A stretch of DNA of 64,000 bases, taken from contig NZ_CP006882.1 of assembly GCF_000161795.2 (NCBI RefSeq), positions 1,736,001 through 1,800,000 on the forward strand, written 5' to 3'. The position numbers and the translations under genes are program-made. This document shows, one piece after another, positions 1,925 through 9,525 of the stretch (positions within the stretch are counted from its first letter, which is position 1; each line of letters begins with the position of its first letter). The stretch comes from Synechococcus sp. WH 8109 (GTDB lineage Bacteria; Cyanobacteriota; Cyanobacteriia; PCC-6307; Cyanobiaceae). The notes below the pieces were generated by a model. The model saw only the letters and a program-made list of their open reading frames with translations. It did not search any database and had not been told where the DNA came from.

Positions 1925-2101
1925 TCAACCAACAGGCGGCACGGCGTCGATTACGGCAGGGCAGTGACTAGCCAAGCCAAAGAGAAGAACTGTCCCGAGG
2001 ATTACTAGGGACGTAATGACCAGTCGTCGCGCTCGACGAGTGACCGAGGTTGGCTTGAAGCGTGAATACCTCCACGCCCCTCTGCACAGCATGTGTGGCA
2101 T
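1925..2101 (-). CDS. Overlapping +1-frame small membrane ORF in integrase fragment (copy A)
   Basis: This ORF of 58 codons starts at an ATG inside the integrase HSHATH motif, in the +1 frame, and runs past the integrase stop. It has a basic first half (many Arg, Lys), then a hydrophobic segment (VILGTVLLFGLA) that could span a membrane, then the tail PAVIDAVPPVG. The same layout occurs in copy C (8099-8275). Between A and C, differences beyond the integrase stop fall at 8 third and 2 first codon positions of this frame and at no second positions. That suggests coding constraint. Function unknown; it could still be a by-product of integrase codon composition. Confidence 0.35.
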   Translation of the reverse strand: MPHMLCRGAWRYSRFKPTSVTRRARRLVITSLVILGTVLLFGLASHCPAVIDAVPPVG

Positions 2102-2210
2102 GGCTGTGCCTTAGCTGGTGTGGATGAACGTGAAAACCGGCGGCTCGTCCCCACTTTCGGCAAACATCTCCAATCGCTTGTCGAGTGAGATGTCCCTTGC
2201 CGCGGGGGCT
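1968..2210 (-). pseudogene. Tyrosine recombinase C-terminal fragment (copy A)
   Basis: The frame matches residues from about 239 to the end of the complete integrase at 8142-9098. It retains the HxLR box (HPHQLRHSHATH), the LGHSSS box and the nucleophile region GHYV, but lacks the N-terminal core-binding domain, the first catalytic Arg and the beta-hairpin Lys. Homology begins abruptly at SPRG; the sequence upstream is unrelated. It is a decayed copy left by an earlier integration event. It cannot be an active recombinase alone. Similarity to copy C continues about 40 bases past the stop codon. Confidence 0.85.
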
Positions 2211-2254
2211 TTCTTTCAATATGGCTACAACCTAAGAACTGAGACCCCGCCGCC

Positions 2255-3148: not shown

Positions 3149-3296
3149 CACAGCTCCTGCAGAGCCCAAGCCCCCGTTCCATGGCTTAGATCGAGCTGCG
3201 CCCCGCAAAAGCGAGGTGAACGTTTGGTAGCAGTGGCTACATATTCTTTGTACCTCCGCCTAAGAACGCCGCGCAATATCGACTAGGGAATCCACA

Positions 3297-3677
3297 TCAA
3301 TTGCGAGAAGGATGCGCCCTGTGACCGCGGAAGCCACGGGTGTCAGCACCCAGGCTGAGCATCCTGTTCATCTGCGCGACGGCACCAATCACACAGGCGT
3401 AGCTGCATGCCTCCTCCGCCTTTCGCGCCGTGCGCTCCAGGCGAGCGATGCACTGGAACAACAAGTCACGTTGATCAACGTTGTCGTCGCCGAAGGCAAT
3501 ATCCATCCACTCTTTGTGGGCTTCAGTCACGACACGACGGGCTTGTCGACGTGAGCACCCCCATGTTTGGGCCACAAGGGACGCAAGCTCAGAGAAGCCG
3601 ACGCCTTTGTCGATCTGCTTCATCGCCCACTCGTGGCGCTGTTGCTTCTCTTGCTTAATGACTCGTCTGGGGACCAT
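3297..3677 (-). CDS. HTH protein resembling phage terminase small subunit
   Basis: A 126-residue protein. Residues 1-20 are basic (KQEKQQRHEWAMKQID). Residues 28-50 form a helix-turn-helix-like segment (FSELASLVAQTWGCSRRQAR). Two long helices follow (about 55-115), then a basic tail. HTH plus helical oligomerisation region is the layout of small terminase subunits, which recognise the packaging site of phages and of phage satellites. No large terminase, portal or capsid gene is visible here, so the protein would serve a satellite that borrows a helper phage, or act as a plain DNA-binding regulator. The resemblance is by layout and general sequence character, not by a decisive motif. Confidence 0.5.
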   Translation of the reverse strand: MVPRRVIKQEKQQRHEWAMKQIDKGVGFSELASLVAQTWGCSRRQARRVVTEAHKEWMDIAFGDDNVDQRDLLFQCIARLERTARKAEEACSYACVIGAVAQMNRMLSLGADTRGFRGHRAHPSRN

Positions 3678-4930: not shown

Positions 4931-5113
4931 TTACGACGAATGTGCCCGAGTCCAGCGATCTCGGCGGCTCTCTAAACAGCGGTCGCACATGCAGGTGAAG
5001 TCATCGTCGGCACCGATGCCAGAACCAGGCACACCTGAGACGCCCCAATTCGTGTGGAGTGTCCATCGATAGAGCTTCGCCAGCTCTTCGTCAGTAGGCA
5101 GATATGACCGCAT
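4931..5113 (-). CDS. Small hypothetical protein with CxCxxC motif
   Basis: ATG at 5113 gives 60 residues: MRSYLPTDEELAKLYRW, a Gly-rich middle, then FTCMCDRCLESRRDRW. The C-x-C-x-x-C cluster near the C-terminus could bind a metal. The ATG overlaps, by one base (TGATG), the stop of a short integrase remnant, so this gene once followed an integrase directly. It ends just before the bidirectional terminator at 4881-4915. Function unknown. Confidence 0.5.
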   Translation of the reverse strand: MRSYLPTDEELAKLYRWTLHTNWGVSGVPGSGIGADDDFTCMCDRCLESRRDRWTRAHSS

Positions 5114-5162
5114 CAACCAAGACGCAGAGAACTGCTGTCCTGGGGGTTACTAGCGACGTAAC
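5113..5162 (-). pseudogene. Integrase 3'-tail remnant (copy T)
   Basis: The minus strand here encodes YVASN-like residues and then DSSSLRLG followed by TGA, the last 16 or so residues of the integrases at 5467 and 8142. The cysteine-motif gene starts in its stop codon. No more of the integrase is present: upstream sequence belongs to the ORF at 5150-5401. Bases 5115-5140 are identical to 5469-5494 in copy B. The remnant marks either a deletion product or a recombination junction. Confidence 0.75.
5115..5140. repeat. 26-bp direct repeat, left copy
   Basis: The 26 bases are identical to 5469-5494, 354 bases to the right in the same orientation. Both lie at the 3' end of integrase coding sequence. 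A direct repeat at this place could be an attachment-site core or the trace of an unequal crossover. Confidence 0.8.
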
Positions 5163-5453: not shown

Positions 5454-5600
5454 TCAGCGAAATGCACTAACCAAGACGCAGAGAACTGCTGTCCAGAGGA
5501 TTTGCAACCACGTAATGCCCAGTAGTCGCACTCGACGAGTGACCGAGGGTGGCTTGAAGCGTGAATACGTCCACGCCCCTCTGCACAGCGTGTGTGGCAT
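5454..5600 (-). CDS. Overlapping +1-frame hydrophobic ORF in integrase (copy B)
   Basis: As in copies A and C, an ATG within the integrase HSHATH codons opens a +1 frame, here 48 codons. It runs past the integrase TAG and ends VLVSAFR. The first half is basic (SRFKPPSVTRRVR); the second is a hydrophobic helix (ILWTAVLCVLVSAF). The tail differs from A and C because B's downstream sequence is unrelated. Three out of three copies keep the frame open, but the overlap region alone is not proof of expression. Confidence 0.3.
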   Translation of the reverse strand: MPHTLCRGAWTYSRFKPPSVTRRVRLLGITWLQILWTAVLCVLVSAFR

Positions 5601-8098: not shown

Positions 8099-8275
8099 TC
8101 AACCAACAGGCGGGATGGCATCAATCACAGCCGGGCCATGGCTAGCCAAGCCGAAGAGAAGAACTGTCCCGAGGGTTGCTAGCGACGTAATGACCAGTTG
8201 TCGCGCTCGACGAATGTCCGAGGGTCGCCTGAAGCGTGAATACGTCGACTCCCCTCTGTACCGCGTGCGTGGCAT
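8099..8275 (-). CDS. Overlapping +1-frame small membrane ORF in integrase (copy C)
   Basis: 58 codons from ATG 8275, inside the integrase codons for His275-Ala276, to TGA 8099, 43 bases beyond the integrase stop. The N-terminal half is Arg-rich (MPRTRYRGES, RRPSDIRRARQ). Then comes a hydrophobic helix (LVITSLATLGTVLLFGLA) and the tail SHGPAVIDAIPPVG. Beyond the integrase stop, copy A differs at ten bases: eight third positions, two first, none second. Both keep PAVIDA(I/V)PPVG and the same stop. This pattern suggests a translated protein, perhaps a small membrane protein co-produced with the integrase. It is not proven. Confidence 0.4.
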   Translation of the reverse strand: MPRTRYRGESTYSRFRRPSDIRRARQLVITSLATLGTVLLFGLASHGPAVIDAIPPVG

Positions 8276-9098
8276 GGCTGTGCCTTAGCTGGTGTGGGTG
8301 GACGTGGAATCCAGCAGCACGTCCCCATTTGCGGCAAACATCTCCAATTGCTTGGCGTGTGAGGTGTCCTTCACCGCGGGGACTAGGGAAGACGAAAGCC
8401 TCCGCATCGCCGCGGCCCAGCTCTTGAAAAAGGTCGAGCGTTGCTGCCGATACGCGGACAGTGCGTCTCTTAGACCCTTTGCCGAAGAGGTGAATCTGGC
8501 CTCCGTCATCGAGTGCCTCGATGTCTTTCCAACGGATAACCGCGATCTCAGAGACCCTGCAACCCAGTAGGTAACTCCCCTTAATCAAGGCGTAATCACG
8601 CCTTGAATTTCGATCAGTAGAAAACGCCTGCCTGATTACGGCCAGCAGTGTCGCTACAGCCTCTTCTGAGATCCCCCTTGTGGTCTTGGGTGCTTGCAGC
8701 AGGGATCGTGTGGGGACCGGGTTTCGTGGCACTCCAGTTACAGGAGAACGGCTTGCTTCCGATGCCCATCGATAAAGGCTTGAGATCGCAGCAATCCGCC
8801 GATTGAAGGTTCGAGGCTTCATGAGTCCGGCATCGACTTGTTCCCGCAGTTGGGACACCCAGTCCTGGCAGAAGGCAGCGTTGATCTCGCGTAGATGCAG
8901 ATGCGGGTGATTGCGATCCCGCCAACGCGTGAACTCGCGGATCTCGCGCTTGTAGCCACGAACGGTCTCACTGCTGCCAGAGCGACTGCACTGCGTGAGG
9001 AAGCGTTTGATCAGCAGCGCGTCGCCCCAAAGAACGGCTCCGGCTGCTGCTGTGTCGAACATGCGGCTGACAAAGGCCAGCGCCTCTGCCTTGTCCAT
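8142..9098 (-). CDS. Tyrosine recombinase / integrase, complete (copy C)
   Basis: A 318-residue XerC/D-type site-specific recombinase. The N-terminal core-binding domain is about residues 25-115 and the catalytic domain about 140-310. Catalytic residues are all visible: Arg181 (GCRVSE), Lys207 (GKGSK), His269-x-x-Arg272 (HQLR), His295 (LGHSS) and Tyr304 (GHYV). ATG 9098 is the only standard start, although the frame stays open upstream into ssrA. It lies beside the 3' end of the ssrA coding piece, the usual place for an integrase that targets that gene. It is the only intact copy among four and presumably drives mobility of the newest element. Confidence 0.9.
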   Translation of the reverse strand: MDKAEALAFVSRMFDTAAAGAVLWGDALLIKRFLTQCSRSGSSETVRGYKREIREFTRWRDRNHPHLHLREINAAFCQDWVSQLREQVDAGLMKPRTFNRRIAAISSLYRWASEASRSPVTGVPRNPVPTRSLLQAPKTTRGISEEAVATLLAVIRQAFSTDRNSRRDYALIKGSYLLGCRVSEIAVIRWKDIEALDDGGQIHLFGKGSKRRTVRVSAATLDLFQELGRGDAEAFVFPSPRGEGHLTRQAIGDVCRKWGRAAGFHVHPHQLRHSHATHAVQRGVDVFTLQATLGHSSSATTGHYVASNPRDSSSLRLG

Positions 9099-9199: not shown

Positions 9200-9525
9200 C
9201 AGAGTCGGTTTGGTGATTGTTGAAGGCCCCTTCCAGGGCCCATGAGTCATTTGGGTGATAAGGCTGACTTCACCCCATCTCCCTTAAAGGGTCAGGCAGC
9301 AACAGGGGCTGCTTGACGGGAGAAACGAACGATGTTGTTCGCAGTTACGGGTTTGCTCTCACCGAGCAGGCTTCAGTCACCCTCCTCATGCCCCGTCGAA
9401 ACCATTGCAGCCCCAAAAGGGAGAATGGAGCTGAGCGGAATCGAACCGCTGTCCGAAACACTGGTGTGGATCACCTAGTCCGACGAAGCCGAACCCTGTC
9501 ATTCTGACAGGAGTGGTGACCTGGA
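9200..9525 (-). ncRNA. ssrA: tmRNA, circularly permuted two-piece form
   Basis: On the minus strand the acceptor piece comes first: a hairpin at 9495-9511, then the T-arm (GCGGTTCGATTCCGC), ending CAGCTCCA at 9426. An 11-base spacer (9415-9425) leads to the coding piece, which starts GGGGCTGCAATGG at 9414. GGGGCTG pairs with CAGCTCC to form the acceptor stem, which proves the permutation. CCA is not encoded. The coding piece holds the tag frame (9292-9342) and a hairpin around its stop. tmRNA with SmpB rescues stalled ribosomes and tags proteins for proteolysis. Outer ends are approximate. The promoter must lie within the N-terminal region of the divergent methyltransferase gene. Confidence 0.92.
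9292..9342 (-). CDS. ssrA: tmRNA proteolysis tag reading frame
   Basis: From the resume codon GCG at 9342 to TGA at 9292, the frame encodes ANNIVRFSRQAAPVAA. With the Ala charged on tmRNA this gives the degradation tag, whose AA end is recognised by ClpXP-type proteases. The sequence is of the marine Synechococcus type. The stop codon lies beside a hairpin (GCAGC/GCTGC), as in other tmRNAs. Confidence 0.93.
   Translation of the reverse strand, partial: ANNIVRFSRQAAPVAA

Follow-up and report, generated by a model that had tools for sequence, protein, structure and literature searches.

A probable small membrane-protein gene read in +1 across the 3' end of Synechococcus island integrases

At the 3' end of an integrase gene in Synechococcus sp. 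WH 8109, a second open reading frame (the nested ORF) begins in the +1 register, runs beneath the last integrase codons and continues past the integrase stop. Does this frame encode a protein, or is it a by-product of the integrase sequence? The window, by which we mean the whole stretch of DNA analysed, covers 64 kb of a 2.11 Mb genome that forms a single contig. The integrase copies and two neighbouring genes lie in it as follows.

8142..9098, minus strand: integrase copy C, a full-length tyrosine recombinase of 318 aa (Pfam matches PF00589, E 1.9e-27, and PF02899)
1968..2219, minus strand: integrase copy A, a C-terminal remnant of 83-85 aa
5467..6183, minus strand: integrase copy B, N-terminally truncated, 238 aa
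5091..5164 (approximate), minus strand: copy D, a small remnant of the last integrase codons (RYVASNPQDSSSLRLG and a stop) with the same +1 frame (VTSLVTPRTAVLCVLVDAVISAY and a stop)
9225..9510, minus strand: tmRNA (ssrA) gene, cyanobacterial, beside integrase C
4931..5116, minus strand: small gene after integrase D, 60-61 aa, CMCxxC, its ATG overlapping the integrase-D stop (TGATG)

The host gene is a tyrosine recombinase: the Phage_integrase domain of copy C scores 96.6 bits against a PF00589 cut-off of 27.1, and in a named collection the integrase is most closely related to those of Synechococcus and Vulcanococcus. Because integrase C adjoins the tmRNA gene and the tmRNA end (9220-9267) is repeated 22 kb away (83% over 48 nt, window -12989 to -12942), the region is probably an ssrA island, with the repeated tmRNA end as its likely target; A, B and D are remnants of the same integrase inside the island. 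Similar genes of 57-61 aa, CMCxxC or alike, are placed likewise after the L008, L012 and L137 integrases. The CMCxxC-type gene of the window has no Pfam match and only NCBIfam matches far under the cut-off; it may be a coupled partner of the integrase, for example an excision factor, which is a guess.

Other features of the region and its relatives were recorded in passing. A Glutamine-II riboswitch aptamer (RF01704, 66.3 bits) lies among the integrase remnants at 3165-3225 on the minus strand. In L134 and L132 (G279 and G242), integrase ends are fused to the C-terminal end of the 126-aa ORF at 3297-3677 (minus strand), with L045 as a further related locus; the ORF has only a weak PHROG match, to a family of unknown function, and that it is terminase-small-subunit-like is no more than a guess. 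At 1392-1820 of L045 (G297:C86), an integrase stub is followed by a hydrophobic ORF, whose ATG overlaps the stop of the nested ORF (ATGA), and then by a second nested-ORF remnant. L039, a contig from a Crocinitomicaceae MAG (PBXW01000080.1), carries an integrase 84% identical to that of the window in a Bacteroidota bin, and is likely a mis-binned cyanobacterial contig. Within the integrase itself, codons 77-90 (copy C ~8829-8870, minus strand) have the lowest synonymous variability in the clade of C, falling to 0.07 of the expected value at codons 78-82. Copy B starts at codons 79-81, and so do L133 and L039, the last being cut there by its contig end. These codons might mark a break or recombination site.

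The nested ORFs of the window, with the parts of the one in copy C, are as follows.

8099..8275, minus strand: nested ORF of copy C, 58 aa, with a basic N part, a predicted hydrophobic helix and a tail past the integrase stop
1925..2101, minus strand: nested ORF of copy A, 58 aa
5454..5600, minus strand: nested ORF of copy B, 48 aa, tail VSAFR
8144..8191, minus strand: hydrophobic stretch of nested ORF C, residues 29-44 (ITSLATLGTVLLFGLA), under the last 16 integrase codons
8099..8143, minus strand: tail of nested ORF C beyond the integrase coding end (SHGPAVIDAIPPVG and a stop), codon-constrained in the +1 frame
8283..8286, minus strand: Shine-Dalgarno-like AAGG in integrase codons Leu271-Arg272, 7 nt ahead of the nested ATG

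Copy D, the fourth and smallest of these integrase ends, also has the +1 frame. The first-pass annotation had listed three ORFs, of 58, 58 and 48 codons, at 8099-8275, 1925-2101 and 5454-5600, and these held exactly, all on the minus strand. When C and A are aligned over 177 nt, 17 differences fall in the 134-nt overlap and 10 in the tail. Fourteen of the 17 affect second codon positions when read in the new frame, corresponding to integrase third positions, and the 10 in the tail are eight third and two first positions of the +1 frame, a count already made in that annotation and upheld on recounting. The two tails read ASHGPAVIDAIPPVG and ASHCPAVIDAVPPVG, each followed by a stop.

An open +1 frame at this place is unremarkable by itself, since synonymous re-codings of four integrase peptides leave the frame open to the integrase stop in 57-82% of cases, and yield an ATG plus an open frame in 26-37%. 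The nested ATG is likewise expected because the His(CAT)-Ala(GCN) codons supply it. Some integrase match was present in 134 of 400 genomes, from which 45 distinct 3' ends were collected (five hits too short at the 3' end were skipped, identical ends merged, and those with <45% identity excluded). The integrase frame is intact in 35 of the 45, and among these the ATG is present in 26, a +1 frame reaching past the integrase stop in 27, and both in 21. Early +1 stops are present in some copies, such as L136, L013, L022, L025 and L030.

Beyond the integrase stop, and hence outside the overlap, purifying selection acts in the +1 frame in three sets of copies with different tails, with p values that are optimistic for related copies. 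The 62-nt element made of the integrase end and the tail occurs in five of 34 genomes of the genus, as eight strong and two partial copies. In the tail of seven copies, each codon position of the +1 frame is represented by 13 sites; variation affects 12 of these at the third position, eight at the first and three at the second. For the group 1 tail (eight copies from five genomes; ANHGPAVIDAVPPVG and a stop), the +1 frame gives 125 synonymous to 79 nonsynonymous codon pairs, and none of 3000 column shuffles reached its score (p 0.0003). In this test L134 was cut after 27 nt, as it runs on into another gene, and the tails of G297a (VNHGLVVIGTFV and a stop) and G261 (ADHAEIVIDTLSPRA and a stop) were excluded. 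Differences from copy C fall mostly at integrase position 3 before the integrase stop and at +1-frame position 3 after it. The +1 stop is retained in group 1 as TGA, TAA or TAG, and homology stops there; one member, G131, has a TAG inside the tail.

The second set, group 2 (integrases L012, L018, L021, L029, L137, L149 and L256), ends in VDGPF or VNGPF before the stop, and its seven copies give 45 synonymous to 6 nonsynonymous pairs (p 0.0005), against 0 to 41 in the +2 frame. The third consists of L257, L258 and L239, with the tails VNGRF, ANGRF and VNHRF, and gives 7 to 4 (p 0.006). Single pairs of tails gave 2 to 1 (L008/D) and 1 to 0 (L147/L151), and the pair L039b/L238, at 2 to 3, offers no support for constraint. 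In contrast, three pairs with at least one helix-less copy gave 1 synonymous to 11 nonsynonymous; one of these pairs is identical, and one partner, L243, passes the helix cut described below.

Several other origins for the tail were considered and rejected. A copy of the tmRNA tag (ANNIVRFSRQAAPVAA) matched four tail peptides no better than shuffles (p 0.10-0.74). A fragment of the ORF at 3297-3677 is not supported by a match of only 17 of 20 nt to the C tail (E 7.9), and a dead fragment of it would give no codon constraint. An attachment-site duplication of a host gene was discarded, the tail's own genome having the element only at A and C, and a DNA recombination element is disfavoured by the codon pattern. 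The tail was not found in viral contigs, where exact degenerate patterns only were searched; in phage records the tail peptide had one chance-level match (E 7) and the L257 peptide none.

A second line of evidence comes from the helix. As a null, each integrase was re-coded synonymously and its +1-frame hydropathy compared, in the 40 copies, out of 55 alignments, in which the last 16 codons are covered (L269, L270, L271 and L280 are not included). Under those 16 codons the +1 hydropathy is above the null at p<0.05 in 25 of the 40 copies and at p<0.01 in 15, whereas the other 18 +1 windows reach at most 6/32, the +2 windows at most 5/26, and the +2 frame under those same codons 1/40. Among distant integrases, 2 of 81 usable are above the null (Fisher 2e-13). 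Integrase codon choice favours a +1 helix, and does so only in this window and this frame, the copies again being related. The nested ORFs of C, A and B reach a KD 17-residue maximum of 2.0-2.6. AlphaFold2, given nine aligned copies, returns a single helix over residues 18-52 (mean pLDDT 67.4, pTM 0.36) that is confident only in its core, with mean pLDDT of 82 for residues 21-30 and 88 for residues 31-40. These computations predict for the nested protein a single hydrophobic helix of membrane-spanning length.

With a hydropathy cut of 0.85, which is our own (L007 at 0.95 passes, L246 at 0.83 fails), 27 of the 40 copies bear the helix, and all 27 have an in-frame ATG upstream of it. The remaining 13 lack it; some of these have +1 stops, and six have an ATG plus an open frame. 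The helix is present in 18 of 21 partial integrase alignments and in 9 of 19 full-length ones (Fisher p 0.012), so that 10 of 19 full-length integrases are without it. Some of the partial copies are frame-shifted and not truncated, and island stacking at the target could likewise favour C-terminal stubs. On a weakly supported integrase tree the helix label changes eight times and clusters weakly (47 of 500 shuffles were as low). Either the gene has often been lost or it arose more than once.

The strongest evidence of the analysis comes from copies in which the integrase is dead. L257 (G156), L258 (G169), L269 (G291) and L270 (G234) retain integrase similarity only from residue 233 or later and have lost the integrase stop codon, and L269 and L270 have upstream stops too. 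In +1, sequences such as MYSHSDHTLDTVHLGRQVMTMLISLSTVLLCGWLNGRF and MHSRSSRSSATAQPGRQAITLLLTLATVIFCGWVNGRF are still encoded, each ending in a stop. Counted over 25 codons plus the stop, the codon pairs of the four copies are 46 synonymous against 49 nonsynonymous when read in +1 (p 0.0003). Read in the integrase frame they are 17 against 84 (p 0.62), with no purifying selection seen; the outcome is the same with five or six copies. The third position of the +1 frame is the integrase first position, where a living integrase would mostly resist change. The +1 frame is under purifying selection after integrase decay, with two reservations: the copies are related, and their choice was biased. L257, L258, L269, L270 and L271 are within the integrase match lists and L280 came from the nested-peptide search alone, and the +1 frame of L269-L271 was examined only after the nested peptide had matched them, which biases the sample towards frame-bearing copies.

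Where translation would start is less clear. AAGG or GAGG lies 7 nt upstream of the nested ATG in copies C, A and B. In the clade of C, Arg272 is AGG in 18 of the 19 copies having Arg, Ser274 is AGC in 17 of 18 and His275 is CAT in 18 of 19, whereas outside the clade these codons vary freely. AGG is kept 7 bases before the nested ATG because codons 272, 274 and 275 hardly vary within the clade. The stretch from the Shine-Dalgarno-like match to the ATG is the 12th most constrained of 254 five-codon windows, so codon conservation here is possibly a sign of internal initiation and is suggestive only. Copies without the ATG of the HSHATH box mostly have one three or ten codons later, some after GAGAGG. 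L005/L221 (G061), a full-length integrase, reads QSNATH in place of HSHATH, and retains the nested ATG and an SD-like GAGG.

Some results speak against a simple reading. The N part of the nested ORF follows the integrase frame only and is not conserved in +1. Synonymous variability is not lowered at the 3' end of the 19 full-length integrases (0.62-0.73 versus about 0.58), and in the helix region of group 2 neither frame is clearly favoured (p 0.09-0.43). All tests use related copies, so the p values overstate independence. No family exceeded its curated cut-off for the nested ORF in Pfam or NCBIfam, no PHROG was found for nested ORF C, and the nested peptides had no convincing match in phage records.

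The first-pass annotation had inferred selection on a small nested membrane protein, which the tail, helix and dead-integrase evidence supports, translation not being shown. Its start at the HSHATH ATG needs amending for the several copies that lack this ATG and have one three or ten codons later. Between that ATG and the helix, moreover, the new frame shows no conservation. Nor is the protein universal, 13 of 40 copies being without the helix. Stop codons in the +1 frame of further copies, which it had named as a refutation, occur in a minority only. It had proposed measuring codon constraint beyond the integrase stop and within the overlap: constraint past the stop was found in three sets of copies, and within the overlap the picture is mixed, with constraint on the helix in dead integrases and in codon choice, none on the N part, and no family-wide fall in synonymous variability.

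Because of the codon constraint in the tail, the helix-favouring codon choice and the persistence of the frame after integrase death, we consider it likely that this +1 frame is a genuine small gene, carried by these islands at the 3' end of the integrase and encoding a single-pass membrane protein of 38-58 aa. This is inferred from sequence alone, and translation and function are themselves inferences. Ribosomes would start inside the integrase mRNA, at the HSHATH ATG in C, A and B or at an ATG three or ten codons later. The product would comprise a short basic N-terminal part, one hydrophobic helix, which the conserved integrase end supplies when read in +1 (HYVASNPRDSSSLRLG in copy C), and lastly a tail running past the integrase stop to its own stop. 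It is inferred to sit N-in as a single-pass protein of the inner membrane, and it would be expressed with the integrase and be useful enough to outlast integrase decay. Since it is kept without the integrase, the protein can be expected to serve the island or the host in its own right. As a weak first guess, it may be a membrane-acting island effector, either growth-arresting and toxin-like or of the superinfection-exclusion type; a role as integrase regulator seems less likely than that of a toxin-like or infection-blocking membrane protein.

The principal rival is chance: the ORF would merely follow from the integrase sequence, and common ancestry would have produced the helix and tail patterns by accident. 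In its favour are the ATG given by His-Ala (CAT GCN), the frequency with which re-codings keep the frame open (57-82%, or 26-37% with an ATG), the unconserved N part and the 13 of 40 copies that are helix-less. However, chance does not account for tail constraint in three sets, for constraint in dead integrases, or for a hydrophobic excess in a single window and frame that only 2 of 81 distant integrases show, and we regard it as unlikely. Still less likely is that the tail lengthens the integrase at its C-terminus through a +1 ribosomal frameshift or a hop at the stop. The constraint of group 1 does change frame at the integrase stop, and a Gly codon precedes that stop; a Gly codon before the stop is also found at the bypassing site of phage T4 gene 60. 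Yet the +1 frame is constrained or hydrophobic upstream of the stop as well, it persists with its own ATG in copies with little integrase left, no slippery site is seen by eye, and Gly-stop-Gly is not general.

It is equally hard to credit that only a short peptide of ~16 codons is made, by translational coupling from a TTG start overlapping the integrase stop. Apart from G297a, group 1 copies do contain TTG GCT or TTG GTT, and coupled genes follow other integrases of the family, but no such start exists in group 2 or in L241/L231, and the upstream helix signal would be left unexplained. Finally, the pattern could stem from an antisense gene in the mirror frame, whose third positions coincide with those of +1, and the mirror frame also beats column shuffles. 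Such a gene is very unlikely: the synonymous fraction of the mirror frame is 0.59 versus 0.61 for +1 in one set and 0.31 versus 0.44 in another (group 2 not being among the two), one copy of each of two sets has a stop, and homology ends at the +1 stop codon, so that there is no shared antisense start.

Beyond the nested gene as such, there is a bolder reading, in which the integrase 3' end is a birthplace of membrane-protein genes by overprinting: the +1 helix comes ready-made, tails are recruited from whatever follows the stop, gains and losses occur several times, and the gene stands alone after integrase death. For this scheme as a whole, with all its parts, we lean slightly towards disbelief. 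If the nested gene is real, an unannotated small membrane protein is carried in islands of very abundant ocean phototrophs, hidden under the annotation 'integrase', and it could account for the persistence of C-terminal integrase stubs. The copies also form a natural series, with both frames alive, one dead, or different tails, for tracing the birth and survival of overlapping genes.

Several known systems offer points of comparison. Overprinted same-strand genes of bacteria likewise comprise a +1 reading frame that lies within another gene and extends beyond its 3' end, encoding a second protein from an internal start with a Shine-Dalgarno-like match; unlike them, the host here is a tyrosine recombinase, and in several genomes the nested gene has outlived it. 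Overlapping small genes are a known kind; of one nested in an integrase and outliving its host, no described case was found in the literature searched (titles and abstract starts), and to our knowledge no overlapping gene inside an integrase has been described. Type I toxins of the Hok, TisB and Fst/Ldr types are very small hydrophobic membrane proteins. The nested protein resembles them in its length (<60 aa), basic end, single predicted helix and mobile-element context, and differs in having no family match above cut-off and a toxicity that is only conjectured; a scan for the sigma-70 consensus, which covers that consensus only, found no promoter for an antitoxin RNA. Integrase-coupled genes with stop-start overlaps also sit at the integrase 3' end, although those of the CMCxxC type are in the +2 frame and start at the stop, whereas the nested ORF is in +1 and starts inside the integrase. 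The islands borne by ssrA and tRNA genes in picocyanobacteria are named tycheposons, and the probable island here is like them in having a tyrosine recombinase next to the tmRNA gene, a direct repeat 22 kb away and several integrase remnants.
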